From: Echinococcus granulosus
Taxonomy: Eukaryota > Platyhelminthes > Cestoda > Cyclophyllidea > Taeniidae
Length of the DNA: 64,000 nt
Assembly: GCF_000524195.1 (NCBI RefSeq)
Contig: NW_020170501.1
Location: 162,550 to 226,549 of the forward strand
Direction: 5' to 3'
Every line of letters starts with the position of its first letter. Position 1 is the first letter of the stretch. This document shows positions 1,343 to 50,340 of this stretch, piece by piece. Under the pieces are notes generated by a model, which saw only the letters and a program-made list of their open reading frames with translations, searched no databases and was not told where the DNA came from. Made by a program: the position numbers and the translations under genes.

Positions 1343-1399
1343 CCAATCAAAGTGTTGAGTGTCTTGCCAATCAGAGAGTTAATAGAATTATCTATAAAA
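1343..1399 (+). promoter_or_regulatory. CCAAT/TATA promoter of array copy 1
   Basis: CCAAT boxes lie at 1343-1347 and 1367-1371 and a TATAAAA box at 1393-1399, 42 bases before the ATG. The near CCAAT starts 26 bases before the TATA. The same layout is seen at copies 2, 4 and 5. Confidence 0.7.
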
Positions 1400-1440
1400 T
1401 AAGGCCTTTCACCATGTAAAGAATAGACAGTTTGATTCAG

Positions 1441-2318
1441 ATGGCGAAGAAGGAGGCAAAACCAAAGGAGAAGAAAGAGAAGAAAGATAAGAAGGACAAG
1501 AAAGATAAGAAGGACAAGAAAGACAAGAAAAACGATAAGGGTAAGAGCAGTAGAAGTGACAAGAAGGTCACCCGGGAAACCCAACGCCTGGAGGTATCAA
1601 TATGTGGGCATCCCGATGTCGTAGATATGTACATGGTAAAGGTAAGTCCACTTATTGCTTTTGCTTACCTCACTTGTGGATCCTACAGAGCAGCGATTTG
1701 AATGCCGTGATAGATAGCTACCAAATAGACATTGATCCAGATCCTGGCACCAATGCAGAAGGCCAAGTGATTGATACAGAAGCTGATCTCTTTCTGTGTG
1801 TCTACGATGTACGCAATCGGAAAACAGTTGATTTCCTCAAATCAAAGGTAAATGGTCCTTTGCAATCTCACCTATCTCATTCTAGGTTTTACCAGAGGTC
1901 AAGAATTTGAATAAGAAAATGGCGATTGCTGGATTGGGGCTGGAGTATAGAATGGGCGGACGCGATGAACTCGCTGATATGGGAACTGCTTCCTCATTGG
2001 CTAAACAGTACGGGTGTCGAGGTGCCGAGCTAATCTACTGTGAAGGTGTAAGTTCCCCCATCTCCCTTTGTGATAGTTTTTTTTGTCTACCGCTAAAATT
2101 AATGTGCTTACACGCTTTTTACCCTCTTTTTGTAGGAACAGCTGGCAGCTGGAACATTTTCGCTGTACGCAGCATCGAATCCAGAGAAATACAATAAAGA
2201 CACTGAAGAAAAGACGGAGGAGGGGGGCGATAAAAAGAAAAAGAAGGATAAGAAAGACAAGAAGGATAAGAAAGATAAAAAGGATAAGAAGGAAAAGAAG
2301 AAGAAAGAGAAGAAGTAG
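1441..2318 (+). CDS. array copy 1: lysine-rich Ras-fold-like pseudoGTPase
   Basis: Four exons, all joined in phase 0: 1441-1641, 1689-1847, 1886-2047 and 2136-2318, giving 234 residues. Residues 1-48 are mostly Lys/Asp/Glu repeats. The core starts with a beta strand ending in CGHPD, followed by PDPGTN, the strand ADLFLCVYDV, then MAIAGLGLEY, SLAKQYGC and AAGTFSLYAA. In order these resemble Ras strands beta1, G3, beta4, beta5, helix alpha4 and helix alpha5. The residues that bind nucleotide are gone: no GKS in the P-loop, no NKxD, no SAK. The tail is again KDKK repeats and there is no CAAX box. The family assignment is my inference from pattern order. A function as a scaffold, or in binding acidic lipid or nucleic acid, is only a guess. 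Confidence 0.8.
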
Positions 2319-3253
2319 TAGGAATGATCTAGCATTTGTAAACTGTCAACTCCTATCATCTTCCCCTGACCCTTCACCAGCCTCCGCCATCTGCTGCGCT
2401 CGAACGTACCTGTCAGTTTGTCCACCTGTAATGCCATTCTGTCATTCCTGCAATCTAACCATTAACTCATCTCTTTGCTGCTCCAAGTGGCGCACTTCAA
2501 AACTTCTTTTCAAGAGGCTTATCACTTGCCCACTTTTTCGATTTTTATCTTAAAGACCGCTTTGTGGGCATCACTTGAGATTTATCACCGGTACCTTATA
2601 TATATGTATTATGTATTCTTACACATAAATCCCTACAAGATCTCCAAAACATCGCTTCTTGCTTGGAGAGGGCTTTCCAGAGGGACGTGGCCAGGCAGAG
2701 GGTTACACCAGAACCAGTCCTTGCTGTCATATCTCTTCCATATTTTTTGATCGACAGTAGTAATGGAACACCTTACTTCTCTCTTATGCCTAAAAGAAAC
2801 ATACGCGGTTAAAATGTGACATTGATGGACACGTAGTTATTTACAGCTAGGCGCACGCTCCCGAGGAATTGTTTTAGTTAATCTCATTTAACAACACAAC
2901 ATGATGCAATCAAATTTTAATTAAAAAATGACCCATTTAGAGAGGTTTTGCAATTTTGGTCAAAATTTATAACTCGAATAGCATAAATTTGGGCATTATC
3001 TTTTGATTGGCCAAGAAAGTGACCAATCGCAGAGTGGGTCCAGTACCCAATGGGAGTGTTGCATCGGACTAGAGGGAAGGGACTAGAAATTTGTGCAACC
3101 TTTTCAACAATTTTGCCGGCATAATGAACACATGCGCCTGATAGGAGAGGCAAGTAGACATCCAATCAACTCATGTCACTAGTATGTGGACATACACACA
3201 TACAAAATGCGAGCAAAAGAAGCAAAATACCAATTAGAAAGGTGCATGATTTG

Positions 3254-3286
3254 CCAATCGGAAAGCAAGTTTATTGACCTATAAAG
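3254..3286 (+). promoter_or_regulatory. CCAAT/TATA promoter of array copy 2
   Basis: CCAAT at 3254-3258 and TATAAAG at 3280-3286, start-to-start spacing 26 bases, 42 bases before the ATG. The distance to the ATG equals that of copy 1. Confidence 0.7.
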
Positions 3287-3327
3287 TAGAGCACTTGGCT
3301 CTCTAAAGGTCAGGTAGTTCATTTCAA

Positions 3328-4109
3328 ATGCCAAAGAAGGAGAAGTCAAAGAAGGAAAAACAGGACAAGAGTAGCTCCCACGAGAAGAATTCAAGTCGCA
3401 AGACTTTACATTTGTATGTGACAGTTTGTGGCGATCCCCAGGCTATAGAATTGTTTACGAGAAAGGTAAGTGTGATTGTGTTGTCTGTGGGCTCAATTAC
3501 TTTTTCGCTACAGAACTCCGAATTGAATACTTTAATAGACAAGTATCAAGTGTTTATTAACAGCGAGCCTGGAAATGATGGTAGTGGCAGAGTGATAGAG
3601 GGAGAAGCTGATTTCTTCCTCTGCGTCTACGACATATGCAATCGCAAATCAGTGGATTTCCTCAAGAATAAGGTATACCTCTAGGGAATTGCCTCATTAG
3701 CTGGCTTATAGGTGATGAACGTGGTGAATGGCTTAAAGCGGCCCATTGGTGTTGCCGGATTGGGACTGGAGTATAGAACGCGTGGAGGTAAAGAGCTCGC
3801 CGACGTTGGCACTGCTGCTGCATTGGCTAAACAATATGGATGTAAAGGCACTGAGCTTGTCTCCTGCGATGCAGTAAGTACTTCTTTCCTCCACCTCCGG
3901 TCCCACCTCTTCTTTACCATGATTAATGGCCCTGTTTAACCTTTGATGTGTAATAGAGACAAATGGCGGCTGGAACATTCGCTCTGTATGCAGCTACAAT
4001 GCCAGAAAAGTTTAACGCTAACCCAGACAGTAAAGAAGGAGGAGAAGAAGGGGAAGAAGAAAAGAAAAAGAAGAAAAGTGGAAAGAAATCAAAGAAAGAG
4101 AAGAATTGA
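3328..4109 (+). CDS. array copy 2: lysine-rich Ras-fold-like pseudoGTPase
   Basis: Exons 3328-3465, 3514-3672, 3712-3873 and 3957-4109, all phase 0, encode 203 residues. Exons 2 and 3 have exactly the same lengths (159 and 162) as in copies 1, 3, 4 and 5, so only the lysine-rich first and last exons vary. The core shows VCGDPQAIELF where a P-loop would be, EPGNDG at the G3 position, ADFFLCVYDI (beta4), VAGLGLEY in place of NKxD, ALAKQYGC, then CDA and MAAGTFALYAA. The tail is GKKSKKEKN. No signal peptide or membrane segment is visible, so a cytosolic or nuclear protein is likely. Confidence 0.8.
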
Positions 4110-6140
4110 AAACTCTTCTATGTCCCTCATTTACACTCTTGATCCGTTTAACACCTTCCGCTTGTCAATTGTTCTTTTAATCTGTCTTCCTGTTACCTCA
4201 CCTCACCTCCCCCCCTAGTGTCTTTATTTGACCAATTTTAGGAAGCATAAATCTATAGCTAAAGCAAAAATGTTTTGTTTAAGTCCTCAACATCTTCCCT
4301 TCTTAAAAATGAAGGAACAGAAGGTGGATTTCAAATTTACTATAAAAGGTATTTACATTAATTTTTAGAGGAGCCTTTTAACTTCGGTGATTAGTTTATG
4401 CGTGTGCAACTAGAGAAGACAAAAGCCTTGGTAGGGTTTCACATGCCACCCACGTAACAAATGTGTGCCACAGTGCCTCGGGTGGTATTGGCACAATACA
4501 GGGGCTTTCAGCCCAACAATACGCAATTCGATTGGCTTCAATAAAAAGAACAGTTACTGAATAGCTAGAGAAGAGAGAGAATGCAGGCTGTCTAATCAAC
4601 CAATTTGTTTACTTTTATTAGAACATTCCTAGGCGCGGTTAGGACTTAATGTTGAAGCTGCAAGATCGGTGATTCCTATGGAGACTTAGGACAGTGTTGA
4701 AGGCTCACAAGGGCCTGAAAAATTAGGTCGCCCGTAACGTGAAACGTCAAACTCTAAGTTGAGGAGATACACCACTTTTAGCTAAAAAGAATAAGATTGA
4801 GTCCCTACGGAACCATTGCATGGATCCCATGGTGGTCCATAACCTCTCCAAAAGTTGACATTTAACTTTGAGAAGGCTTAAAAAGTGGTGTCTTTAGATT
4901 ATCTACCCAATTCATAGTACTATTTGACTGATTAAGATTAACCTCAGCAGTTTCACAATAGTTGTGGCCAAGTAGAGTATTGTAAGCAAAAATCTTTGGC
5001 TTTTGTTTCTGCAAAAGTGGACAATCTGATTGGACAACTTGATCAGTTTCTAATTGGGCGTAGCCTTGACCAATCAGTAGAAGGTACAAAGGGTGTGGCG
5101 ATTAATGTCCAATCAAAAGCATTTGCTTGATTCGTGTACATGAAAGTCAACTCAGTTAATACCTTAGAGAAGTAGTATTTGTAAAGAGGCCTGTTCTTGT
5201 TATAGTAGAGAAAATACGCATTTTACTTTTTGGTGGAGAAAGATCAACTCTGCTCGCATTGTGTCAAAGTCTGCAACGTTGCAAGCTGTTGAAGTAGTCT
5301 AGTGGACAACCTCAGAATATATGACAGACTATCAAAGATACCAGGTCAACACCCTACGCCAGATTCAGAATGAGGGTTCATCCTCTTCCCTATGGGCACC
5401 TCACGTATCGTGCTCTCCTTCAGACATCCATCATTATGGCAGCAACACAGGCGAGCATCTGCTTGAAATCATTCTGTGGCTTGAGGTGGTAGACACAAAG
5501 TCAGGAGCAACTAGAGCCACCGAAAGCACAGATCAGACGGCGTGTACACATCTTTGTGGAAGATGTGACCATGCTCTCAATAAATACCTAGACGAACCTA
5601 CTACCCACTGCATTTCCCCAGCATAATGTTGCCATCATTACCTTTTGAGGTGAGACGTTCTTCAGAATGATACTTACAAGGTCAGAAACTCCAATTGGTG
5701 CCTCGGGGATTATAATTGAAGCAAGCCAATTTCTTACGGCATGAAGGGGAGCAAAAACGAGTAAAAAAGTGTGTTCTTCCCCTTTAAAAAATCGTATTTG
5801 AGCCTTTTAGTGCCTTTAAATGCATTTAATTTCACTCCATCAGGGTTGAGCACAAATGTCTGACTTCTAAGTTGGACACTCGTCAACTCCCTTTCTGATT
5901 GGGTGACAGGTTAACCAATTAAAACGCCTCATTCTCCATTAATTAAGGCGTCCATTTTTGAGGAGAGGTAAATGCTTTTTGAATAAAATTTACTCGATTT
6001 CAAGTTAAACATGGATAGCAGCATACTGCTTAAAGACTAAAGGAAAAGCATAGGAGTCAAACGAGGGTAGATCCAATTAGGGGCCTATCATGGGGTCTTA
6101 CACGGACACGCACATAAGGTGCGAATGAAATTAAGGAAAA
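4110..6140. other. spacer between copies 2 and 3
   Basis: This 2-kb spacer is longer than most others in the array. Apart from the decayed element described separately (about 5230-5640), it holds a CCAAT-type cluster at about 4990-5130 with at least four CCAAT/ATTGG sites but no array gene after it. Single CCAAT boxes lie near 4530 and 4600. No array exon was found here, so a lost copy is possible but unproven. Confidence 0.45.
5230..5640 (+). pseudogene. decayed gene-derived element, forward copy
   Basis: This stretch is similar to the reverse complement of about 8400-7980. Shared blocks include the CATTGTGTCAAAG motif (5250-5270), TTCAGACATCCATCA (about 5425-5440) and TCAGGAGCAACTA (about 5500-5515). 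A frame at 5321-5626 remains open and contains SDIHHYGSNTGEHLLE, matching SDIHQCGSHAGKYLRE in the reverse copy. The two differ by many substitutions and indels. I do not recognise the protein. It may be a dispersed repeat or a duplicated host gene remnant. Confidence 0.5.
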
Positions 6141-6197
6141 CCAATCAGTGAATTTAGAGATCCATCAATCATTGTTAGTGAGATGGACTATATAAAG
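6141..6197 (+). promoter_or_regulatory. CCAAT/TATA promoter of array copy 3
   Basis: CCAAT at 6141-6145 and TATAAAG at 6191-6197. The spacing here is 50 bases, as at copy 6, instead of 25-26 at the other copies. Confidence 0.65.
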
Positions 6198-6237
6198 GAG
6201 ACATAAACTTAATGCAGTCGGAGGTGATAACTTTCTC

Positions 6238-7074
6238 ATGGTGAAGAAAGAGAAGAAGGCAAAGGGAAAGAAATTGAAAATGGAGAAGAAGTTGAAGTCA
6301 GGAAAGGGTGGAAAAAGTGACAAAGAAAATGGGCGCAGTAAGAAGCCTAGTGGTGAGACAATACGGTTGTACGTGGCCGTGTGTGGTGATCCTCAAGCCG
6401 TCGATTTATTCATGAAGAAGGCAAGTCTGTGATAATTTTAGTCTCATTACAACATTTTTTTGACAGAACGGTGACTTGAATGTGGCTGTAGACAAGTATC
6501 AGGTGATACTTGACGCTAATCCGGGCAATGATTCGAATGGTAAAGTGGTTATCAAAGGAGCTGACTTCTTTTTGTGTGTCTACGACGTTTGTGATCGCAG
6601 GACAGTGGGGTTCCTTAAGAAAAAGGTGAGTTGATTTGAGTAGCTTTAACCACCTATTTGAAGGTCATTCCAGAGGTCAAAGCAATGAACAAGAAGATGG
6701 CAATTGCTGGATTGGGTTTGGAATGTAGGGGCAGTGGAGGAAAAGGTGAGACTGAGATAGGCACGGCTGCACAATTGGCCAGTTTTTATGGATGCAAGGG
6801 CACTGAACTCATCTGCTGTGATGGGGTGAGTAGTCTCCACCCCCGCCTCCCTCCCTCTATAACACTTTGGTTTCTTCTCCACTATGATTGTTCTCTCCCC
6901 TTCCATTTTGCCTTCTTCTAGCATCAAATGGCAGCAGGCACATTCTCACTTTACACAGCTACGTGTCCGGAGAAATTTAAGGAGATTAGGCAATTAATTG
7001 TAGACCGAACCGAGGAAGACAGTAAGGAGGAGACGTCAAAGCAGGAGAAGACGAAGAAGGTAAAGAAAAAATAA
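6238..7074 (+). CDS. array copy 3: lysine-rich Ras-fold-like pseudoGTPase
   Basis: Exons 6238-6420, 6467-6625, 6664-6825 and 6922-7074 (218 residues, all phase 0). Intron 1 begins GCAAGT, a GC-AG intron, where copies 1, 2, 4 and 6 have GT. The core reads VCGDPQAVDLFMKK, then NPGNDSNGK, ADFFLCVYDV, MAIAGLGLE, ASFYGCKGTELICCDG and MAAGTFSLYTA. The lysine-rich start (first ~36 residues) and the tail of the last ~25 residues (Glu/Lys then VKKK) frame the core. Both neighbouring spacers contain a decayed element in opposite orientation. Same family and same caveats as copy 1. Confidence 0.8.
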
Positions 7075-7339
7075 GAATTTTGGGTTTTTTTTCTCCTCCT
7101 CCTCCTCCTCCTTCTACGTATCATCCTCCAATCTACCAACCTGTTGACAATATTTGATGCCTCCACTTCAACTGCCGTCAAATGTCTTATCGCTGAAAAC
7201 CGAGTGAAAGGCTCTTTGTGTGTGTCAGTGTGTGTTTGTTCCTAAAACCTTAGCTTTGGGGGAGAGAGGGGATATATTTATGGAAGACAAGTAGTTATTC
7301 TTTCGCTGGGTTCCTCACCTGCATTTTTTACGCCTCTTT

Positions 7340-8400
7340 GTATTACCGGTCCGCACCAAGAATTACCAACCATCGAGGTTCCTCTTGGGAGTCCAGCCTG
7401 GTGTAGGTCATTTGGAATGAGATCTCACCTTCAGGGGTGATGTTGACAACACCCTTCTGTGTAATTGGCCTAGCACGGTCAAATCTTCCACTGAGGTGTA
7501 TATTCATCATCGCAGTCTTCCCTACTGTCTATAGAATATGCGCATTCTTGACAGACGTAGCCACTGAAGCTTCGTCAGCGATGATAGTGAATCGGCACTC
7601 CCATCCGCCACGTTGCTCTGATGGCGAGGTAAAGGAACGCCTCCGCCATTGTCGCATGTAATGCTGTAGACCAGAGAATTCTAGGCGCCCTGTTTACAAC
7701 CACGCCTTCAACTCGGCGCATCACTGAACTCACAATCCTGGAGGTCAAAGTGCGGAGGTGTTTTCGTTGACGCCAAGGATGCGTCGACTTGGAAGAAGTT
7801 GTCAACATGTGGTGTAGGTGAAAGCTAAAGCTCACTGTTTGGACAGATTGAATGGTCGTTTGTAGAACATTACTTGATAGGCGGCTCATTATGACTTTGA
7901 TGCATTTGGGCTGTGTTCTGTGGATATACCGCCGTCACAGTCAAAATCCTTGCGGTTAGCTGCACGATCTTACTGGAAGCCCTTCCGTGAGTGAGAGTAG
8001 CACCGTCCATCTGTGCTTCCCATGATTAGTAGTTGCTCCTGAATTTATGTCTCCCACCTATGGCCATGAGATAGTTTCACGCAGATACTTGCCTGCGTGG
8101 CTGCCACATTGATGGATGTCTGAAGGGAAAGACGAAAAGGGCGTCTTCCACTAGGAATAGGACAGACTTGCATGCCAATCCCACTTATTGCTGCATGTGA
8201 CGTTGTCTCTTACTGGAACCAGGAGTTGCTTGTTGATCTACACACGGATTAAAGGATATGCGATAGTCTAATTCGTCTGTTCTGAGGTCGTCACCTAGAG
8301 TACTTCTACACTTTGACACAATGAGAGTGGAGTCGATCTTTCTCTACTATGAGCAGAAAGGTGTATTTGATCTCCAGTCCGACAGGTAGAAAACACTTAG
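7340..8400 (-). pseudogene. decayed gene-derived element, reverse copy
   Basis: Read on the minus strand, this is the longer relative of the 5230-5640 element. The similar part is about 8400-7980. Further 3', after a TATAG that looks like a splice acceptor, an open frame of about 60 codons runs from about 7526 to a TAA near 7346. It contains NITPEGEISFQMTYTRL and ends WLVILGADR, which looks like real protein. Upstream frames carry in-frame stops, so the whole is probably a decayed multi-exon gene or transposon-derived copy. No family was recognised. The CCAAT cluster at 8463-8580 lies where its promoter would be. Confidence 0.45.
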
Positions 8401-8462
8401 CGAGTGCTACTTCTCTGAGGCCTCTGTCGATTTAGCAATTATGTATACAATTCGATCGTATG

Positions 8463-8580
8463 TTTCTGATTGGCTATTAATTGGGCACGCCCTATATACC
8501 TTCTGTTGATTGGTCAGGGCCACCCAATCAGAAACTGACCACGTTGCCCAATCTGACTGGCCGCTTGGTCCAACCAATAA
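8463..8580. promoter_or_regulatory. dense CCAAT cluster, both orientations
   Basis: Five to six CCAAT/ATTGG pentamers are packed into about 120 bases (near 8469, 8480, 8512, 8525, 8549 and 8575). The cluster sits between the start side of the decayed minus-strand element and array copy 4 on the plus strand. It could have been a shared bidirectional promoter. Confidence 0.45.
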
Positions 8581-8768
8581 ATTAATTCCTTTTTTGTTAT
8601 TTTTTTCCTGAAATTTCCTGCCTGGTTAAAAAGCACTGCTAGAATAAGGCGATCCACAGTGATCATTCGTATCTGCTCGTAAACTAAAAAGACAGACAGA
8701 TAGACGCGCGCCGAAAGATTTTGCCATAACTTCGTAGTAGGAGACAATGAAAGATCGCAAATCATCTT

Positions 8769-8800
8769 CCCAATCAGATTAATTGGGATAAAATATAAAA
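8769..8800 (+). promoter_or_regulatory. CCAAT/TATA promoter of array copy 4
   Basis: CCAAT at 8769-8773 and TATAAAA at 8794-8800 (spacing 25), 40 bases before the ATG at 8840. The promoter looks intact although the coding sequence is broken. Confidence 0.6.
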
Positions 8801-8839
8801 GGGGCAACAAATGTGTAAGTTACAAATAGTGTGGTCGTA

Positions 8840-9613
8840 ATGCTGAGGAGAGAGAAGCTCGTGAAGGAGGTGAAGAGCGATAAATATCGCAAGGTAGGTA
8901 AAAATAAGCAGGGTGATGCGAATTCCAAACTAGAAGTCAAATTGGGAGAAGCTTTGCTTAAATGTGACAGTGTGTGGCAGTCCGCAGGTTATGAATTTGT
9001 TAATGCAAAAAGTAAGTCTATGTGTGCAGTGAATCCCCTCGAAACTCTCCTCCCCCTTCTTTACAGAACGGTGAATTGAATGCTGCGGTAAATAAGTATC
9101 AGGTGCAGATTTACGCTGATCCTGGAAATGATCGGAATGGTAAATTATTTGGCATAGAAGCCGATCTTATCCTCTGTGTCTATGATATTTGCGACCGCGA
9201 GACAGTCGAGTTCCTCAGATACAGGGCACGTTAGTTTTGGGGGCATAACATGCCGGTTTTAAGGTCCTGCCACAAGTCAAAGAGTTGAACAAGACGATGG
9301 CGATTGCTGGATTGGGATTGGAATGTCGAGGCGGTGGTAGATGCGGCGACACTGGGATAGGAACAGCTGCTCAACTGGCTAGGTTCTACGGATGTAGAGG
9401 CACTGAGCTTATCAGCTGTGACGGAGTGAGTAGTCACCGTTTCATCTCTGAAAACAGAAATTTTGTCATTAATCCACTTTTCTTGCCATCTTCTAGCAAC
9501 AAATGGCAGCTGGCATATTCTCACTTTATGCGGCTGCGTGTCCGGAGAGGTTCAAGGAAGTTAATGAAGTCCCAGATGAGGAAGAAAAGGAGCACTGGAG
9601 GAAGAAGATGTAA
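8840..9613 (+). pseudogene. array copy 4: frameshifted Ras-fold-like gene
   Basis: By alignment with its sisters the exons are 8840-9011, 9067-9225, 9264-9425 and 9497-9613. The lysine-rich start is in one frame. The P-loop-like segment (VTVCGSPQ) lies in another, and that second frame has an in-frame TAG upstream. A 2-base deletion or 1-base insertion near 8957 explains this. Exons 2-4 keep normal lengths (159, 162) and phase. Intron 2 starts with GC (9226). The last exon is shorter and lacks the polylysine tail, ending HWRKKM. It is either a recent pseudogene or carries an assembly error at 8957. The downstream exons are well preserved, so decay would be young. Confidence 0.7.
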
Positions 9614-10213
9614 TAAGGGAGATTTTGTTTTCCCTTCAATAACCTCACTTCAACATGTCTGTCCTCCTCCATCTTTCTCTAGTATTAACCGATTCTTCTT
9701 CTCCCTCTTTTTTGACTTCCAGGGACCTAGTAGTCCCCAGGACTTAGGAACAGGATCTCTTTACTCCACAGTCTTTGTCTCTGCTTCCCTCGAATGCAAA
9801 TATGGGAAAAGTGTGAGCCTAAGTACTCATCCCAATATTGCCAATCCCTTCTGAGTCCTTTCTTGTAACAAATGCGACACCCGTAAGGAGAGGTGTTTTG
9901 GTTTAATGGTTAGAAGTGTTGGAAGACCTTACACCTAAAAGAGACATCAAAATACTAGATTAAAACAAAGCCTTATAGGCAAATGCACCTCTCAATTCGT
10001 TGAGGTAGGAAAAAATGGCACAGAAGCCATCAAATTGCCCATTTTTCTCGCAGTTACACAAAATAGGTCACATGCTACTGAAATCGGGGGTTTAAAAATT
10101 AAGCAGTAAGGCGGAGCCAACCAAATTTTTGCATTAGGTCACACGGACATGCACACAAGAGGTGAGAAGAATAAGGTGAAATAAAAAATCCAATCAAAGA
10201 ACCAAGGGCTTTG

Positions 10214-10245
10214 CCAATCAGAAGGGAGTTGAATGACCTATAAAA
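10214..10245 (+). promoter_or_regulatory. CCAAT/TATA promoter of array copy 5
   Basis: CCAAT at 10214-10218 and TATAAAA at 10239-10245 (spacing 25), 39 bases before the ATG at 10284. An upstream in-frame ATG at 10233 overlaps the TATA box and so is unlikely to be in the mRNA. Confidence 0.65.
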
Positions 10246-10283
10246 AAGCAATCAAACCTGATGGGCAAGTAGTACACACTTTG

Positions 10284-11145
10284 ATGGCGCGAGGAATGAA
10301 AAACAAAGAGGCATCAAAGGAAAAGGCACCCAAAGAGAAATCTAAAGGCGACAAATCAAAGAAAGATAAGAAGGGGAAAAATAAAGGCGAATCACAATTG
10401 GAGGAGAAGAGGAAGCAACCAGTGGCTAGAAAGGCTACAAACTTGAGTATGAATGTCTGTGGTCATCCAAATGCCATTGAGATGTTTAAACAAAAGGCAA
10501 GCTTGATGTCTGTGACGCCTAATCTTGCAGGAAAATGAGTTGGATGTAGCTGTGGATGAATATCAGGTGAATTTTAATGTCAACCCCGGAAATGACAGTG
10601 ATGGCACGCTCTACAGTGGTGATGCTGACTTCTATCTTTGTGTCTACGACGTTCGGGATCCAAAAACTGTCCAATTTTTACAAAAAAATGTGATTTTTAA
10701 GGAGTTGTCTTAATCAATTTTGAGCTAGATTTTGCCAAATGTGAGGGCCTTGAATAAGGTGATGGCGGTGGCTGGTCTAGGGCTTGAGTATAGAAGTCGC
10801 GGAGGTCAAGATGGCGTCAGTATTGATACAGCCGGCCTACTTACCAGGCAGTTTAGATGCAAGGGGACTGAGCTCATCTACTGCGATGGAGTAAGCAGTC
10901 CTCTCTCCATCCTACTAGTCCCATTTTCCCAACAAAGGATTATTTTATGAGGCAATTTTTTACCACCTTTTTAGAAACAGTTGGCAGCAGGAGCGTTTTC
11001 TCTCTACGCTGCTGCAAATCCAACAATGTTCACCAAACCCACTGAAAAGGCAGAGGAGGTGAAAGAAGACGATGGCAAGAAGACGAAAAAGGAGAAGAAG
11101 GGCAAAGCAAAGAAGGAGAAACCCAAAAAGGAGAAGAAGAAATAA
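10284..11145 (+). CDS. array copy 5: lysine-rich Ras-fold-like pseudoGTPase
   Basis: Exons 10284-10496, 10531-10689, 10729-10890 and 10975-11145 (234 residues, phase 0). Intron 1 is only 34 bases and starts GCAAGC. The start was set at 10284 because the earlier ATG lies before the TATA box. The core carries VCGHPNAIEMF, NPGNDSDG, ADFYLCVYDV, AVAGLGLEY, RQFRCKGTELIYCDG and LAAGAFSLYAA. The first ~48 and last ~35 residues are dominated by Lys with Glu/Asp. As in its sisters, the GKS, NKxD and SAK residues of true GTPases are absent. Confidence 0.8.
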
Positions 11146-11836
11146 CGTCCTCGTGGTTTTTTCTCCCCTCCCCGGAAGTCCATTTTGGCTGTCCTTCCAT
11201 CCCAGCTAATCCCTTTGCATTCTCTGCTGCCATCATTTGGTGATACAGCATCAAAGGCAATATTTACTCTCTTTGTTTGAATTCTCGAGCACGGAAAAGT
11301 GGCGGCCACTTCAGATTGGCCTGTCCGCTGTCACTCACTCTTTCCTCCCCCCTCCCCCTCCTCTGTCGCATTTCCTTTCTTCATTTCTACTTCTAGGGCA
11401 AATGATAAGTGGATTTTAAGAGCAAAATGAGGAGTTCTTTGAACCTCCCCTGCTCCTTCTCCTAGTCCGTTATTACCGCGAAATCGTGGCATATCTGAAA
11501 GAAGCACGATACGAGAGGGAAGGGAAGGAAGTGCCGTAGATGAAATATGAAGGACTGGAAGCACATAAACTCATAAAATGGAGAAGAACATTAAAGAGGG
11601 GAGGAGTGTAAAAATAAAAATAAGCAATTACAATAAAATCCGTGAGAAGAGTGTGCTCACCTCAGGCAAAGCAAAACAGACGGACAACTCTTTGCCCTAT
11701 TTTTAATTGTGGGTAAGAGAGACAAATAAACTCTCTGTCTAATGGGGAGGAGATGGGGGTGGCGCCTTTATTAGGGTAAGTCACCTTCATGTGCGGACAA
11801 GAAAGACTTGATGAAAACACAGTACTCACCAAATGA

Positions 11837-11893
11837 CCAATCAGAGGATTGATTGGCCTGTCACTCAGGTGTCACCTGAGATGAGCTATAAAA
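11837..11893 (+). promoter_or_regulatory. CCAAT/TATA promoter of array copy 6
   Basis: CCAAT at 11837-11841, an inverted ATTGG about 10 bases on, and TATAAAA at 11887-11893. CCAAT-to-TATA spacing is 50 bases, as at copy 3. Confidence 0.65.
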
Positions 11894-11934
11894 TGGTGTT
11901 TTTCACTTTGTTGTGACTAGATCAGTTATTTCCC

Positions 11935-12735
11935 ATGCCATTGAAGAACAACAAGGATCCCAAAAAGAAACCGGATAAAAATGCCAACAAAGGGGGCCAG
12001 AATAACGCGGGTGACAAGAAGCCGAAGAAGAAGGAGCGTGAGACTAAAAACATCCATGTATGCGTGTGCGGTCTGTCCAGAGTTGTAGATTTGTACCTGA
12101 GACAGGTAAGCAAATAATGGGTTGCCTTCAGCCCGACATTTCTCTCTCTATCTCTCCTCGATAGGTAAATAACTTGTCTTGTACTACGGAAAAATATATT
12201 GTGTACATTGATCCCACCCGTGGGAGTGATGAGGATGGTAGAATAAATGCTACAAACGGGGATCTCCTTCTCTGTGTCTACGATGTTCGTGACCCCAGTT
12301 CTGTCACCTATCTGACGGATAGGGTAGCTTCCCGTGTATCGTCTCATCTGCTTACCTGTAGATTATGCCTTATTTGAGAGGTGGAAACTGGAAAATGGGC
12401 ATAGCCGGATTGGGAGTAGAGAACCGAACCGGAGGATCGGGCGAAACCGATGTGTTCACAGCCAGTCGACTGGCTAGACAATATGGAGCTCACGGCACTG
12501 AGTTAGTCTGCTGTGATGGGGTAAGTAACGCCCTCTCCCCTCTTCTGTTAGCCATTTACAAGTGATGCCCTCGTTCTACCTTTTTCATTGCTCCTTGTAG
12601 AACCAAATGGCAGCGGGCACACTTGCGCTTTATGGACAAGTCTGTCCAGAGGAGTTTGAAGAGGAAGAGGATGAGGACGAGAATGACAAAGATAAAGACA
12701 AGGATAAGAACAAGGGCAAGAAGCCTAAACCCTAA
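11935..12735 (+). CDS. array copy 6: divergent lysine-rich Ras-fold-like pseudoGTPase
   Basis: Exons 11935-12105, 12165-12323, 12362-12520 and 12601-12735 (207 residues, phase 0). This is the most divergent copy. The P-loop-like segment is VCGLSRVVDLY, the G3-like piece is PTRGSDEDG, and exon 3 is one codon shorter. The beta4 strand DLLLCVYDV, the AGLGVENR segment, ARQYGAHGTELVCCDG and MAAGTLALYG remain. The tail is acidic (EEEDEDENDKDKD) before GKKPKP, unlike the basic tails of copies 1, 2, 3 and 5. It is the last copy; nothing similar follows. Confidence 0.78.
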
Positions 12736-24742: not shown

Positions 24743-27700
24743 ATGTACGACCCAAAACCTGAGGCTGTAGAATCCAAAACCGTTGAAGACAATAGAGTGT
24801 ATGTTTTTTGTTGCGTAGTTGAATTGTCTAGTTATGATTCTTTGTTTTGCCTATGTGCACGGTTATCTCCACGACTAGGTATTCTCCATCACCCTTTCTA
24901 GTATGGATTTCAGTTTCCCAATATAACCTTTTCTTTAACGCTGATAACTCTCAAGGAGTGGAATTCGGGTCATATTTTTGAAATCTGTTGACTCTTCGAA
25001 AACTATTGGCCAGGCGTTATAACTTTGGTGTTCTTTTTATTCGCAGCAATCCTTTTTAGTGCTTTTGTTTTTGTTAAGGGTCTATGTAATCTGTACATGA
25101 TTTAAAAATGCGTTTTAGACCGATGAAAATCTCCGGATTTCCCGAGTTTGCGGAGATTTGCTGCTTCATCAACCACTTCGGTGAAAAACTCGGTGTAATG
25201 CTCACCTTTCCGCGAATCGCTCGTCTTTTGTCGTGCGAAACCGATGGTACTCTCCCATTTTGAGCATAATCCTTCCTGTGAATTGTTAAATTCCTCACGT
25301 TGTTTAACTCCTTAAGCCGATCTGCAATCACTGACGACGCTGGTGGTGAAACTGCTCAACAAGATGCGTCTCCGCACTCAGCTGAACCGCTGGCAGCCAG
25401 CACTGGGCCGATTTCTACAGCGACATGCATACAATTGTGACGAGCTTAGATCTATCGGCAACGGACTCAATAACGGCAGTCCACCGACTCTCTTCTTCTC
25501 CCTCGCTCCGCAGCGCCGCTTGCGGGTCCTCCTCTTCTGTCTAGAGACGCAATTCCATCTTAATGTGCCTTTTAAGGAGAAGGTGAAGACTATAGACTCG
25601 CAAACCCTGCGAACTCCACCTCTAGGAGTAGACATCTTTGGTAACTCCTATTGGCTCCTCGTGGACACTGAATGCAATTTCCTTCTCTATCGTTCCTCTG
25701 CAGAGGACATGACCCTGGAGGTTAGTTACTTTTTGTTTAGGCCGATATGTAGCGCACGCGTTATTTGCTATCTTGTCAATACGGGCGTATTTCTAGAGCA
25801 TATTTGAAGGCCCTTACTTGGCTCTTTCACCTTTATGTGAGCTTTGTTTTTGATATTTTTGGGCGTTTTAGGGAGGTCACATATATTTCCATTCCTTTGA
25901 AAAGTATGCGATTCCATATTGATTGTAGTTAGGGAATGTAGCGTTTTTTTATACTGACCCACCAAATTGAAGGCTTCGTTTCTAACTTTATTGAATCGTG
26001 TATCATTATGACGTTGCGCATTAATGCAAGGTGACAAAACAATCGCAGTCAAAAGTAATACATGACACCCAAATCTACTACATCCGTGTATTTGGCTTAG
26101 TTGTACTTTCGGTTGAAATTTTTTTATCATCAACCGTCCATCTTTCAACATTTTTCCACCCATTGAGCCCTCTCTTTTTGTCCGAGGCACCTGAAACTGG
26201 TGAATGTTTTAGATGCGTTTATGTAACATAGGTGAAAACGAGACCATACTCTCCGTTGCGACCCTCGTAGGACCTTGATGAAACATGAGGGAAATTTGCT
26301 TTGCATGTGTATTTGAATGATGTAGAAAAATCAACATACTTTGGAATTGAGAATTAACTTGCTATACTCTCGGCTCTTCCTTATTTCTCTCATTAAAATC
26401 GTGCATTTTTCCTCCGGACCTCTAATCACAGCTACTCAGTGAATCATTCTCTACGCTGGAGACTGTAATTGAAGATCTTAAAGACGAGAAATACGAAAAG
26501 ACTCCCATCTCGGAGCTATATTCGGTCTTTCGTATAGCTGCTAAACAGGAGCCTGAGGGGCTAAGAAACTTTCCATCGCCTCCAACTCTCCCGGATATTG
26601 TGGCCCCGAGAGAGGTAAAGCTTGACGAATCGGACGTTTATGTGAAGCCGGAGACAGCGGAACTTCCAGACGGTAAACCTGAGGAGACAGAAGAGGAGGA
26701 GAAGAAAGCGAAGGTAGAGGACGTGATTACCAAGAAGTGGTACGTGGTTTACTCTTCTCAATGTGTGATAAAGACTGCCGTTATCCTTACCTTCTACTTA
26801 AATCATGCGCTCTGTTTTATTTCAGCGTGGAGACACCTACTGAGCCGGCAGATGAAAAGCCAATTTCTGGACTGATTGCCTGGTGAGTTATTCCATTTTT
26901 ACATTGCTAAACTGAAGACGGCTTTTTTTACCAGTTGTCCCTTGTTTCGTTTTTAGCGAAGATGCCGTTCCTCAAGCCGATTTTGAGCAGCAAGAAACTG
27001 AACAGCAGAGCAGGTTGAAGCGTCATTCGTTTTCACACCTTTGTTTTACCTTTTCTGTGATTAAGCTTGTTATTTTTCATTTAAATTTCAAGTGTCAAAG
27101 AAGAAGGATCACAGGAGGCATTAGGTCTTCGTCGAAGTGGTCGAAAGCGCAAGCAGGTGGAGTTCCTCGCGATGGAGTCCTTCAACAAAGGCAAAAAATC
27201 GCGAGGTAAGAAGTCCATCTCCATTTCAACATCAAAGAAATCCAGACGGGCAGAAGGGAAGTTAAAAGAGGATAAATCTCGAAAGGAAAAAACATCCAAA
27301 AAGCGGAAAAGACGGCGTCGAGGCAAAAATCCCCGAAATGGTCAAAACGGCAGCAGCGGATGTTTGTGGACCCGTTCCCCAGAAGACTCGGAAACAGACA
27401 ATGAAGAGGATGAGGAAGAAGATTTGTGGAACGACGTTGGCTCGAATGGTCCTGATAACAGCGGATCTTCTCTTCAAGATGGAGAAAAACAATCGCCTCG
27501 TGATTGGTTGGAAGATCTTGAAAGTGATTTCGATTTGGAGGCTGAGGATGGAGGCGACTCCGGAGTTGTAGCTGGGCGGAATCTCCAGCGTCAAAAGTCG
27601 CAGGTTCTGGACGAGGCGCCGTGTCAGATTTGCACTGAATCGAATCATCCAGAATGGCTCCTCCTCTGCGATTCCTGTGATCTCGGATTTCATGCCCAAT

Positions 27701-29243
27701 GTCTTCGTCCGGCTCTTCATCTTATCCCTGAGGGCGACTGGTTCTGTCCACGTTGTCTACACACTCGTTTAGTGACTGCTCTCGTCGAGCAGTTGTCGAC
27801 TCTCCAAGCACGCAGTAAGAAGCTGGACAGCGCTGCAAGAATGCAGGAGCGTTTGAATTTCGTCAACATAAGTGTCACGAACATCCTACGGGATGAGCGA
27901 ACGCGTCGCCCAGTTGTAGACAGTGACTCCTCGTCTGTCGAAAGCGAGGAAAGTTCTCATCAAACTAGACGCAAACGCTCACGTTACTACGAAAGTAGCG
28001 GCTCTACTTCGGATGATGCCTCATCCTCTGATGAGAATGGTGACGATGATGAAGAAGAAGAAGACGATGATGATGACGACGAAGATAAGGAAGAAGAGGA
28101 AGATGAACTACCTGCTCGTATAACTCGTCATCGGAATGTTCACTACAACGTGAATGCCGCATTTCAGCAGTTGGACGAAGTGCTAGTGGAGGATGAGAAG
28201 TATGCACAGGAGCGTTTGGAACGCAGCAAAGCGAAGAATCAGCACAGTGATCACGAGGAGGAAGGTAAGGATGAAAGTGCGGCGTGTGGAGGACCTCCAC
28301 TGCCTGGTTCTGTGGTACCGAAGACTGCAAAGAGGAAGCGGCTCTCCTCCTCTTCGGCATCCTCGGACTCCAAGGGTAGAGAACGCGGCAAGCGTCGGAG
28401 GCGTGTCTCACCTGGAAGCGAGGAATTCCGACCTTCCGATGAAAGTGAAAATGACGAAGATGAAGATGAGGAATATGAGGAGGAGGAGGTGGAGCCAAAC
28501 TCCTCGACGGTGGAGTCAGTTTCTTCAGATCAGAGTTGGAACGTTAATCGTAGACGACGAGGCCGACGTCATGGAAGACTTACTCGGAGGTCCGGACATC
28601 GTCGTGGTGGAAGGCCCAGTAAGGGAAGACGTGGACGTCGAATTCCACATTTCGAAGGTCCGTCCAGTGATGAAGATGGTGAAGAAAGTGTTCCTCTCAG
28701 GCAAGCTGATCTCTTTTTATTCGTGAGTTGGATGCTTGCTTGACGTTCTTCTCCACTTGCGTTTATAGACGCAGTTCAAGGGTTCGCGTTAACTACAGGG
28801 AAATCGAAAGCTCTGAAGAAGAGGAAGAGGAAGGAGCAGGTGGGAAGGAGGCCGCTGTTACGAAGAATTCTTCAGGAAGACGAGCTAACACCGCTTCTTC
28901 TGGAAGTGAATATGCTCCAAGTGAGGAGGCAGAAGGTGTTGAGGAGGACGAGGAGGGCGAGGAGGAAAGGGACATCGAAGGCGTAGAAGCCTCTTCATTA
29001 GCTGTGAAAATTCCACCAATCATGTCCACACAGGAGGAGGACGAAATTCTACAAATTTCCAGTCCCGTTGCTACCTCTCGCGAATTTGGTAATAATAATG
29101 AGCCACAAATCGAAGAGGATTCCATGGATATGGTGAAGGATGATCCCATCTTTCAAAATTTTGTAATTGATGAACTCGTTTTGCCGATTCAGCAGGAGAC
29201 GGAGAATGCCTCCGACATGCAACGGCATAGTCCCACACTTTGA
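24743..29243 (+). CDS. RSF1: remodeling and spacing factor 1 (PHD-finger chromatin protein)
   Basis: Eight exons: 24743-24798, 25119-25246, 25317-25720, 26432-26739, 26826-26882, 26957-27013, 27093-28700 and 28769-29243, giving 1030 residues. All junction phases agree. The N-terminal region (about residues 19-200) has FPEFAEICCFINHFGEKLG, like the conserved RSF1 start. The PHD finger begins at C514 (CQICTESNHPEWLLLCDSCD) and ends DWFCPRC near residue 557; NFVNISVTNIL follows as in vertebrate RSF1. Long Lys/Arg and Asp/Glu tracts surround it. RSF1 pairs with the ISWI ATPase (SNF2H) to space nucleosomes in the nucleus. Intron 7 starts GCAAGC, a GC-AG intron. The protein is shorter than human RSF1 (about 1440). 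The first exon is short, so the exact start is less certain. Confidence 0.9.
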
Positions 29244-36662: not shown

Positions 36663-39600
36663 CTACCCAGACTTGGGTTTACCGCGTTGGTTACGCGGTC
36701 TCATTGGAGCTGAATGATCAACTAGCGCCTTTTTTGGAGCTGTTGTCACGTTTGTGACATCTGCGAGATCCCCCGCTGGCACAGTGACTTGTACATTCTT
36801 CTGCGAATCAACGTCCCCAGCAGTCGGGGCAGGCTTTTTGGAATCCCAGTGCTTCACAGGCCACTTGGTGGTGGCAGGAGAATCAGTGGCATTGGTTGAA
36901 GCAGTTTTTGCAGTATCGGACTCATGCTTTGAAGGCTGCGGTGTATCACCAGATTCGCTTACCGCAAGTTTGGTTGGTTTTTTGCCCTTCTTTGACAATC
37001 GTTTTTTTTGAAGTCCCCTTTTCACTTGCGCAGAATCCCCACCTTTAATTGACACTTCACCCTGATACAAAGGCTTTACACCCACTGATTTAATCTTATT
37101 CTCATCCTCATCCTCGGTCGCCTCCTTTTTAGCTCCCCGAGCTTTGATGGGGCAATCTGTGGAAGCAAGAGACTCCGAGACCTGAGATGTTAACGCAGTG
37201 ACCGCCGCCGGTTCAGACTCAAAGTCGTCAGGATTGACGGATTCAGGCTCAGAGGAGCCTCGACTATGCTTAATTGCGGGTTCAGAAATTGACACATCCG
37301 CGGATGTTGAAGGCAGGCGCTTGCGGTAGCCGAAGAAGCCATCTGGAGCCTCAAACTAAAGAAAAAAAATATTACACATTAAATCGTCATATATAATTAA
37401 GGTGAGGACAAGAACGATGTAGCAACTAAGTTACGACTCACGTTAATGCGGAAATCCTCAATTCGTCGATACTTCTTGAGAAGCTCAGCAATGCGAGGGT
37501 CCAGTTCGGGCTTTTGTCTACCGTAATGCAGAAAAGCCCAGAACTTCTCTAGACCGTACAAATGGCCAGCATCATAGTCCCTAAGCGTTTCCTCCTATAG
37601 CACAAAATCGGCTCCAGTTGTATGAGACATAGTAGAGTTAAAAAACAGTAGTATTTAAAAAAGCACCTGAAAGTCTTTGAAAAGGGTAGGTAGGAATCTA
37701 CGTTCCAGACCGTAGGAGTAGAATCGGAAGAGACATTCAATGCCATAGCGATAGCCGACCTCAGCATCTGACCTAGCCAGCTGTCTGAACTCGCGATACA
37801 TCTTGCTGAAGAAGTTGTCTCGCAAGAAGAAGGACCAAAAGCGATAAAGGGTGTTCATCTCCTGTGATTTGCCCGCACCACAACGCTCCCTGTCGGCCAA
37901 ACAAGCAGCACGGTAACGCATGTAGTCCTTTGAGGTGTAGCCACCCGCCTTCAAAACCGATTGAGTGGTCATGTTGTTGCGGAAGTTGGGTGCGAAATTG
38001 TTTACCGAATGAGCTGTGGAGGCACAGAAGGAGGTGGCATGCTTTCGTCGGCCTCGGATTCTTAAAGAACTTGCCCTTGTTGCTTCCTGATCCTCTAACT
38101 GATTACCAGTGGTGTTATGCGAGCGCACTTCTGCCCCACTTGAGGGATAACGTGACTGGCTGCTAATTATCACCGTTGTTCCAGAGCAGCAAAAATCACT
38201 GTAATTGAAAGGTAAATAAGAGATAAAAGTGATATCCTCCTCCTTCTCTTCACTTGCACAAAGGGAGTTGTCAACTCACCGGCCCATCGACACAACAGTC
38301 TTCTCTTTGTCCTCCTCAACGGCTATGTCTGGTACAAAATTAAAAACACTTTTATCACCCTCACAGAAGGAAACACTAGATACACGTGGTCCTCTGCTGG
38401 AGGAGTGACGAGGCCCCTTTCCACTATGTCCGCTAGGTTTGTCGATATCAAAGGCAAAACCGACATCCAATTCGTCACGTCGACGTCTGCCCCCAGCACC
38501 GATTTTGACAGGGTAGAAGCCGACCACACGACGCGGAGTTCTAGGAGTTGGTAGATGTGATATTTTTTTCGGTGATTGGCCAATCTGTTCTTCCGCCTTC
38601 GAAGCGGCCATTGAGACTTCATTGATAAGAGCATCGACAGCAGCTTTTGCAAGGTGGAAAGATGCAGACTGTTGATCTTCAGCAGTAGCAGAGTTATCCT
38701 TGTTGCCCACTTGGAAAACGGGGTTCCACTGAGCCAATTGGACGTTGGCAGGGTAATAAATAATTGGTTGAGCAACGAATGGAGGAGGTTCAACTATGCT
38801 TGAAGGATAAAAGAATGGGTATTCCTTTATTTCAGTGGGTTTCTTCTCGTCAATGGATTCTCCGGGATTTTCAGCTGGCAACTGTTCGCTTTTTGCGGGG
38901 TGAATCGCAGCGGAAGGTGGCACTTTATCTTCAGCGGCAAGTTTTAGAGTAGCAAAATCTTCGTCCGATAAAAGTTGAACCTTGAGATGATATGTAGGAA
39001 ATGAGGATATGTTGAGAAACCTACCTTGCTGGGCTGGCTGATAATGTGATGATCGTCTAGACTACCAAGGTCGGAGAAGGAGCTATTTCTGGAACTGAGA
39101 TAGTCGTCAAAGTCGTAGTCAAAATCAAATCCCAGGCGAGTGTATGATGAGCGACGTTGACGTCGCACACTACTCTGATAAACCTCCAAACCATGCTTAA
39201 TCTCCTGCAAATGCTCTGCGTGAGTTTTGGCCCTAAAATGAGTAGATTTAAGCGAAAGTGAGACCGGTGAAATGAACAAACCTTGACTGATAATCGGGAT
39301 TGGGGTGTCTATCACCGCTTGGATGCTTGCTATAAATTCGCTGCGACACACCGCCACCCTCCGATTTCTGCAATTTCTGAGGGGTAACGTGGTGACTGTG
39401 AGAAAAGCCCTTCGAACGAAGTTCAGAAACAGGAGCAATAGCAGAAGTAGCTGTACCAGAAGCAGTGCTTGACTGTTGTGAAGCCTCTTCTGGCGCCTTA
39501 GATGTAAGAACAGTAGTCGAGGGATCCTCTCTTTCAATTGCTCGCTCTGGTAAAATGACGACAAGGTACTTCAAAAGATCTTCTTCATCTATATCCACAG

Positions 39601-40840
39601 AATCAGAGCTGGACGAAACTGCGCGCGATCGGGACTGAGCCTACAAAAGAAGATGGGGCGTAAGCGCAGTTTTCTTCAAACTTGTGGAAAATGGGATTAA
39701 CAACGCAACAAAGGTGTTACAGGGCGTGAAATTCTTTGAGCTTCAGCATCGCTTTCATAATGAGAACGATTGCCAGCCCGCTTGGATCGACGGTCAACTG
39801 TTTGCCAGCGTCCTTCTTGTGGTTTTTGCTGCTGCTGCTGTTGTTGGGTATTCTGTTGTTCAAGAAAGCAGGGTTCTTCTTGAGCTGATGTTAAAATCAC
39901 TTCCGGAACCGGCGGTTGGGGAGACTGCTGCAGCGTAATTACCGGCATTGGGTTAGGTTGATCAGGAAATTGTAGCAATGGGTGTGGTGCGGCGGGCTCA
40001 GGCAATTCTAGAAGGCAAATCAGTAAGGAAAATAATAAAAGTAGACAAACTCATTGTGGCAGATATAAGAGAGGGAAATGAGTTAGGATTAATCCGGCGT
40101 ATTTTACTCATAGTTTCATCGAATTCGACAACCGTGCTTGCAGCACAAGCCTAAAAAGGATTTCAGGAGTTGAGAATGATAACGCAGCTTACTTTAAGAA
40201 CATCTTCACGTTTTGCTTTGTGCTGGGCCATGCGAGGAAAACCTAGGATTACATCAAGCGGGATAAAGCGATCGTCTTCCATGAGACCCTGCAGATAGGC
40301 GTCTTTACCAAAGTTTGCGTCCCCAAAATAATATTCCACTTGTAATCTGATTCGATTAAGACGAGTAGATGTGCAAAATGCACACTCTGGATGGTGACAA
40401 CAACAAGTAACAGGGGTACGAGTGAGGCCCCTGTAGTAATTAACAATACTAGGATCTATACAGCAATAAATATACCAAACATTTACCAAATCCGAGTATG
40501 GGTGCATGATGGCAAACTTCATAACCCACGAAATTTGGCCCAATGAGAAGGCAAGAACGGTTACGATCACCCACTGTTGCATTCGAAATAACAGACGAAC
40601 GATTATTATCGTTACTGTTACGACGAGACGTACGAGGCCCACTTTGGGCACCATCGCTAACACCAATTGACTGGCTATCCTCCTTGAATGCTGCTTTTTC
40701 TAGCCCAACATCATCTTCGAATCTTTTCCAATTCTTTTATGTCGCCGTTTAACTGGCGCTGCTTCCTGCACAGTCTTCGCACTGACTTTGCCCAGTTCTG
40801 GCCACTCCTCCTCTACAGGTGGATTCACAATATCAACCAT
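36663..40840 (-). CDS. LARP1: La-related protein 1 (mRNA-binding, DM15 repeats)
   Basis: Ten exons from 5' to 3' on the minus strand: 40840-40487, 40386-40193, 40150-40108, 40007-39721, 39640-39282, 39232-39025, 38980-38280, 38162-37667, 37594-37442 and 37355-36663, about 1162 residues. The La motif lies at about residues 128-190 ([20 protein letters not shown], then [13 protein letters not shown]). [20 protein letters not shown] and the C-terminal DM15 repeats ([49 protein letters not shown]) are diagnostic of LARP1. In other animals DM15 binds the 5' cap and TOP motif and controls translation of ribosomal protein mRNAs downstream of TOR. One base appears missing near 40735 in exon 1 (see findings), so the frame breaks as written. 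The acceptor just before the ATG hints at a spliced leader or 5' UTR intron. Confidence 0.9.
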
Positions 40841-50181: not shown

Positions 50182-50221
50182 AGCTTTGTGACAGGTATTG
50201 AGGTGTACGCGACCGCCGCAA

Positions 50222-50340
50222 GTCTATATATCAACCCCAAAAGCGATGTTCTAGAACAATTCCAAAGTGCGCGCAACATACTAGAATGTTCCTAGCCAAT
50301 CAGAAAGCGCCACACTATCATACTGCTTTCTCATTGGTTG
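50222..50340 (-). promoter_or_regulatory. HSP70 promoter: TATA, heat-shock elements, CCAAT
   Basis: Reading away from the ATG at 50181: a TATATA box at about 50225-50231; a heat-shock element at 50249-50263 (alternating GAA/TTC units, one spacing off by one base); a second at 50284-50291 (GAATGTTC); CCAAT at 50296-50300; and an inverted ATTGG at 50333-50337. This is the normal arrangement of an HSF-driven HSP70 promoter. The region stops 13 bases before the assembly gap. Confidence 0.85.

Follow-up and report, generated by a model that had tools for sequence, protein, structure and literature searches.

The closest described counterparts of the proteins considered here are pseudoGTPases. In the human kinetochore protein CENP-M, switch I is deleted, switch II is divergent and the P-loop glycines are lost; the protein cannot bind guanosine triphosphate (GTP), yet it is required for the HIKM complex (PMC4080450). 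The pG1 domain of p190RhoGAP has all five G motifs degraded, an 11-residue deletion that removes switch I, and an α1 helix that occludes the phosphate site, and deletion of the pG domains lowers RhoGAP activity (PMC5593906). The same paper names EhRabX3 as having a GTPase domain that is short of several G motifs, and its 2017 table of non-nucleotide-binding pseudoGTPases contains only p190RhoGAP pG1/pG2, CENP-M and fungal dynein LIC (PMC5593906). A lysine-rich end that binds acidic membrane is described for the hypervariable region of K-Ras4B (PMC6888304). The present analysis concerns a window of 64,000 nucleotides from Echinococcus granulosus, to which all coordinates refer, and a tandem array within it. 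As the original prediction had stated, the array consists of six genes on the same strand (positions 1441–12735, plus strand). They are paralogues sharing a core of approximately 150 residues, which is predicted to be a Ras fold that has lost its nucleotide site.

Predicted fold and sequence kinship of the core

AlphaFold models were examined for copy 3 and for P0018, a Hymenolepis relative that is 39% identical to copy 3. Both models present their elements in the order of Ras. Their PDB matches are small GTPases, and CENP-M heads the list for the P0018 model. In a Foldseek search of the P0018 model against 350,542 chains, the first match was 7pkn chain M (E 2.5e-6, template modelling (TM) score 0.52, root-mean-square deviation (RMSD) 7.1). 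For the copy 3 model, CENP-M was not among the 50 Foldseek matches listed, nor did it occur among the listed VIA rows of either model. The models are consistent with the Ras-type topology originally proposed for the core, with small GTPases or CENP-M as the best matches. In both, α1 begins two residues or fewer after the first strand, leaving a collapsed phosphate loop, and helix α2 and the switch I loop are absent. If Gly50 of copy 3, the first glycine, is equated with Gly10 of Ras, the stretch from it to the hhalign partner of Gly60 is approximately 19 residues shorter than in Ras. From this shortfall, switch I appears to have been removed, as had been claimed. The claimed spacing of 19 residues between the aspartate of the G3-like piece and FLCV, compared to 21 in Ras, was right on recount.

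Out of 5060 candidates, a profile search of the protein database retained 18 proteins at E ≤ 10, all of them from tapeworms (Echinococcus, Taenia, Hydatigera, Hymenolepis and Rodentolepis), in searches that need shared 5-residue words and can miss more distant relatives. The core alignment used for the comparisons below comprises 16 rows and covers 14 of the 18 database cores. Copies 5 and 6 take the place of P0005 and P0008, copy 1 is an added row, and P0012, P0015 and P0017 are left out. When the core-only profile was searched against 177,635 PDB sequences, four small-GTPase sequences came out on top (E 0.017–0.17), namely two versions each of EhRabX3 and EhRho1, and the next match had an E of 2.3. 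A Pfam scan of 14 cores matched five to Ras (PF00071; E 0.052–0.21, all in the same register) and two weakly to DUF1506, with nothing for the other seven. With hhalign, the core profile matched a profile of 12 small GTPases with a probability of 95.7, an E of 9.2e-9 and a score of 56.5. None of 100 column shuffles reached that score, the best being 33.7. Subfamily profiles scored 42.2 (Ras), 35.9 (Rab) and 27.7 (Rho). Single sequences scored lower, with HRAS at 32.8, RAB1A at 27.0 and RHOA at 23.4, and with ARF1, CheY and CENP-M at 14.7–15.4. At 30 small-GTPase loci of the genome, 1930 open frames were compared, and the best match (L046, E 0.0044) is Rho-like by reading. The tapeworm family thus shows its kinship with small GTPases in its sequence, and more clearly than the CENP-M set does.

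Motifs were counted over the 18 database proteins, of which P0012 lacks the P-loop region. The G1 motif GxxxxGK[S/T] occurs in none; stray GK[S/T] triplets lie away from the P-loop in P0001 (residue 25), P0002 (residue 140) and the N-terminal tail of copy 1. The G4 motif NKxD is absent from the cores, and [NT]KxD occurs three times, always in N-terminal tails; AGLG[LV]ExR occupies the G4 position in 18/18. At G5, SA[KL] is found in 0/18, and SAK is mostly replaced by CDG followed by QxAxG. CGxP is a further replacement motif at the former nucleotide edge. No CAAX-like terminal cysteine is present in the 18 proteins. The original prediction was therefore correct for the cores in that GKS, NKxD and SAK are gone. 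Its broader claim, that all nucleotide-binding motifs are lost, stands for these three (GK[S/T] in the first case) and for switch I but does not cleanly extend to DxxG near switch II, which is present in 14/18 with an invariant glycine and a variable aspartate, and where hhalign pairs another glycine with Gly60.

The former nucleotide edge and the opposite edge were defined by us from secondary structure and compared over 16 rows. Mean column entropy was 1.26 for the former and 1.59 for the latter (p 0.04), by which a rebuilt site at the former nucleotide edge is only suggested.

Proposed role and rival explanations

From the predicted structures and the sequence comparisons, a G-domain fold that has lost its nucleotide site is very likely. 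The fuller reading, in which such a family also serves as a non-switching adaptor, is probable. An ordinary small GTPase, of Ras, Rab or Rho type, would have been the origin, followed by tandem amplification within tapeworms. The proteins would no longer use nucleotide or switch, and the family would belong to the pseudoGTPase class that should not bind nucleotide. The core may then act as a constitutive adaptor that grips a partner, perhaps by way of the rebuilt former nucleotide edge. By analogy, a fixed scaffold is the best guess because CENP-M and the p190RhoGAP pG domains act as scaffolds and not as switches. The lysine-rich ends would tether the protein to an acidic surface, most likely membrane and otherwise RNA or tubulin, both of which lysine-rich ends can bind. 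Membrane is favored because the Hymenolepis members P0016 and P0018, which lack lysine tails, begin with MGQKIT, which we take to be a myristoylation-type pattern. Even so, the membrane adaptor role in itself is tentative. The description of the array as a lineage-expanded pseudoGTPase family is supported by the tapeworm-only matches, the six-gene array, the predicted Ras fold and the lost motifs.

Several observations weigh against this reading. The TM-scores are moderate (0.40–0.69 among the Foldseek matches listed), the P0018 model shares its alignment with the copy 3 model, and the G4 region of the P0018 model contains blocks of 62–69, with one of the five models down to 56.6. The best Ras score in Pfam was 13.6 bits compared to a curated cut-off of 21.6; no Pfam match reaches its cut-off, and 9 of the 14 cores have no Pfam Ras match at all. 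The hhalign match is local, spanning β3 to β6, with the P-loop part outside. Full-length profile searches rank unrelated proteins first by way of the tails (an ATP synthase subunit in the PDB, and RNA_pol_Rpc4 and other families in Pfam). For this reason core-only rows were used, and with these the proposed profile search places small GTPases first in the PDB. DxxG survives in 14/18. The difference between the edges is weak, with invariant columns at 8/45 on the nucleotide edge and 3/33 on the opposite edge (p 0.23).

The family may instead be a divergent and amplified CENP-M, either as a tapeworm kinetochore pseudoGTPase or as a paralogue that left the kinetochore. The first Foldseek match of the P0018 model, 7pkn chain M (E 2.5e-6), belongs to an entry with the human CENP-M sequence, and CENP-M is damaged in the same manner, with switch I deleted, switch II divergent and the P-loop glycines lost (PMC4080450). 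In the hhalign register, both have GxGxE at G4 (human GAGRE, family AGLGxE) and CD at G5. The CENP-M profile comprised the human sequence and 71 of the 120 listed matches (of 508), those named being mammals; GxGxE is present in 52 of its 72 sequences and [YF]CD in 66. The E. granulosus genome gave no other CENP-M above the cut-off. However, the 7pkn match combines its TM-score of 0.52 with an RMSD of 7.1, and hhalign against the 72 CENP-M sequences scored 15.1, a background value reached by 28 of 200 shuffles, for a profile whose named members are mammalian. Against the 12 small GTPases, the family scored 56.5 and CENP-M only 13.3. PF11111 was absent from the matches at E ≤ 10 for the 14 cores, in a search whose filters drop weak matches. 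Genome searches returned no match for CENP-K and one below the cut-off for CENP-H; since they ran exon by exon and their prokaryote controls were silent, this shows no absence. With the profile score at background, descent from CENP-M is not supported, and we regard this explanation as unlikely. Elsewhere in the genome, two weak matches to a CENP-M profile (E 0.41 and 0.72) look like chance.

The domain could also be atypical yet keep a ligand in a rebuilt pocket, be it a metal, a cofactor or a different nucleotide. This would account for the fixed G4 replacement (AGLGxExR in 18/18), whose acidic residue falls at the position of Asp119, for the retention of DxxG in 14/18, and for the slightly greater conservation of the former nucleotide edge (p 0.04). 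Such a pocket has little chance given that both models place the start of α1 at most two residues from the first strand, leaving no phosphate loop, and that GK[S/T] is missing from the P-loop region; the conserved glycines and prolines may have a structural role, and the comparison of the edges is weak. The family could also be an unrelated α/β fold of similar topology with no homology to small GTPases, as neither single sequences nor curated profiles give a significant match. This we consider very improbable: the profile match is in register and stands above its shuffled controls, small GTPases head the core-only PDB search, the weak Pfam matches (5/14) are all to Ras in one register, and both models are best matched by small GTPases or CENP-M.

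A Ras-fold family with a lost nucleotide site and an adaptor role remains the preferred explanation. A bolder version of it would have tapeworms convert the G domain to a binding module that works without nucleotide and carries a rebuilt, fixed loop where the base used to sit (AGLG[LV]ExR and CD), a CENP-M-like structural solution that was amplified to a gene family; in its most radical form, the family would descend from CENP-M and would have moved from the kinetochore to a site set by the lysine-rich tails. We hold this version to be a long shot.

Gene structure, distribution and neighboring genes

The features of the array are as follows; coding coordinates include the stop codon for copy 1.

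1343–1440, plus strand: copy 1 core promoter, with CCAAT at −98 and −74 and a TATA box at −48 from the ATG
1441–2318, plus strand: copy 1; exons 1441–1641, 1689–1847, 1886–2047 and 2136–2318; 234 residues, lysine-rich at both ends
3328–4109, plus strand: copy 2; exons 3328–3465, 3514–3672, 3712–3873 and 3957–4109; 203 residues, identical to P0004 (EGR_08852)
6238–7074, plus strand: copy 3; exons 6238–6420 (GC donor), 6467–6625, 6664–6825 and 6922–7074; 218 residues, structure predicted, identical to P0001 (ECG_02321)
8840–9613, plus strand: copy 4; exons 8840–8893, 8934–9011, 9067–9225 (GC donor), 9264–9425 and, by frame, 9497–9613; short C-terminal tail
10284–11145, plus strand: copy 5; exons 10284–10496 (GC donor), 10531–10689, 10729–10890 and 10975–11145; 234 residues
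11935–12735, plus strand: copy 6; exons 11935–12105, 12165–12323, 12362–12520 and 12601–12735; 207 residues

The identical four-exon layout that had been described for all six genes applies to copies 1, 2, 3 and 5 (4/6), in which phase-0 introns flank the core exons of 159 and 162 bases. Copy 6 also has four exons, but both of its core exons measure 159 bases, so that one codon is missing. Copy 4 does not fit the four-exon layout. Intron lengths in copies 1, 2, 3, 5 and 6 are 34–59, 38–39 and 80–96 bases. The exon joins of copies 2 and 3 are confirmed since their spliced translations equal P0004 and P0001, both deposited as E. granulosus, a name used here for the window in its broad sense. The deposited model P0005 begins later than copy 5 and differs at the end of exon 1. 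GC replaces GT in three splice donors, at 6421 (copy 3 exon 1), 9226 (copy 4 exon 2) and 10497 (copy 5 exon 1). Identity to copy 1 is 40–52% for copies 2, 3, 5 and 6; with relatives in other tapeworm species, this places the similarity within the array beyond chance. The motifs quoted in the original prediction are present in the copies. The polylysine ends are clear in copies 1, 2, 3 and 5; in copy 6 the lysines are mixed with acidic residues, and copy 4 has the short C-terminal tail only.

When copy 4 is read with a single first exon, the frame changes before the core. An extra 40-base GT-AG intron (8894–8933) splits that exon in two and keeps the frame open through exon 3. Exon 4 would be an in-frame continuation from 9497, placed by frame only. 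Differences from copy 3 in exons 2 and 3 are mostly silent (dN 0.19, dS 1.05), and the protein database search found no deposited protein for copy 4. As the five-exon reading keeps the frame and the differences are mostly silent, copy 4 is not called a pseudogene here, although it may possibly be one.

In the 250 bases upstream of each gene, a TATA box lies 45–49 bases before the ATG in 6/6 copies and at least one CCAAT box lies between −70 and −98 in each; in copies 1, 2 and 5 two CCAAT boxes lie at a distance of exactly 24 bases. The plus strand of the window contains 39 TATAWA sites, so that approximately 0.003 would be expected in a given 5-base slot. From these elements, each copy seems to have its own core promoter. 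The core promoter spacing is unusually regular across the six copies.

Searches of the genome (103.6 Mb, 272 contigs) gave 21 exon matches with copy 3 and nine with P0018, all within the array; no second locus was found in E. granulosus by either search. A tree was calculated from 19 rows (18 different), with P0017 and copy 4 left out and copy 5 in place of P0005. Copies 1, 3 and 6 each group with Taenia rows (support 96/91, 99/97 and 100/100, with a long-branch warning from the tool). Copy 1 clusters with E. multilocularis P0007 and T. solium P0009, and copy 6 with E. multilocularis P0008, T. solium P0010, H. taeniaeformis P0011 and T. crassiceps P0012. These duplications are therefore older than the Echinococcus–Taenia split. 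The T. solium relatives of copies 6, 3 and 1 (TSMEX_009313, 009315 and 009317) lie on equal-sized contigs, as do two members each in H. weldensis and H. diminuta, which suggests that clustering has been kept in these species. Among the six copies, pairwise values for exons 2 and 3 were pN 0.17–0.38 and pS 0.56–0.90. With silent sites near saturation, only the direction is safe, namely constraint on the protein. The deposited protein P0016 (Hymenolepis diminuta) seems to contain a further, incomplete copy of the domain after the first, either as a tandem domain or as a gene-model fusion. The public names 'Ribosomal_L7Ae' (P0011) and 'Methyltransf_11' (P0013) had no Pfam match at 0.001.

Other genes of the window are as follows.

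18119 to about 20944: GMPPA-like (mannose-1-phosphate guanylyltransferase alpha) gene adjoining the array, by reading of the sequence
About 24750–29243: PHD-finger protein (Pfam PHD) with extended acidic stretches, RSF1-like by reading
36663–40699, minus strand: LARP1, with a La domain and a LARP1_HEAT region (Pfam)
43524–44543: rhodopsin-type G protein-coupled receptor in a single open frame (7tm_1)
48226–50223, minus strand: HSP70 in a single open frame, with a C-terminal EEVD
57735–58670, minus strand: open frame of 311 residues with no Pfam match at 0.001, its start F-box-like by reading

Significance and comparison with known systems

No description of the tapeworm family was found among the titles listed in a search of open-licence papers without their supplements; the same literature gave no papers for the locus tags of five deposited proteins and a guessed tag stem, or for pseudoGTPases with Echinococcus. 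What we describe as a new family has an unusual combination of properties, being free-standing, tandemly amplified, lineage-restricted and mostly lysine-tailed, and as such it would be an unusual addition to the non-nucleotide-binding pseudoGTPases. With relatives in Taeniidae and Hymenolepididae, the conversion of a switch domain into a fixed one becomes testable. The reading also offers a hypothesis for proteins of human and livestock parasites that now carry the labels 'hypothetical' or 'expressed conserved protein'.

Compared to Ras, Rab and Rho (PF00071), the family has the same order of elements in the models and a profile match in register; unlike them, it is without the P-loop GK[S/T], switch I, NKxD, SAK and a CAAX-like cysteine, and it falls below the Pfam cut-off. 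The Entamoeba GTPase EhRabX3 (PDB: 5c1s) is the best PDB sequence match (E 0.017). It differs in having two matching stretches in one chain of 391 residues, the best of which spans 78 positions (per-domain E 1.3). The pG1 domain of p190RhoGAP likewise has degraded G motifs and no switch I, and its α1 occludes the phosphate site, a likeness drawn from the published description; however, pG1 and pG2 sit inside a long RhoGAP protein and the tapeworm proteins are free-standing. Like CENP-M (PF11111), the tapeworm proteins are predicted to be a single small Ras-fold domain with switch I deleted and the P-loop lost, and they share GxGxE at G4 and CD at G5 in the hhalign register. In contrast, their profile similarity to CENP-M is at background, the human protein has no lysine tails, and CENP-M is one protein of the constitutive centromere-associated network (CCAN) complex where the tapeworm family is a six-gene array. 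CENP-M is thus the nearest known design, while kinship by descent is not supported by the profile comparison.

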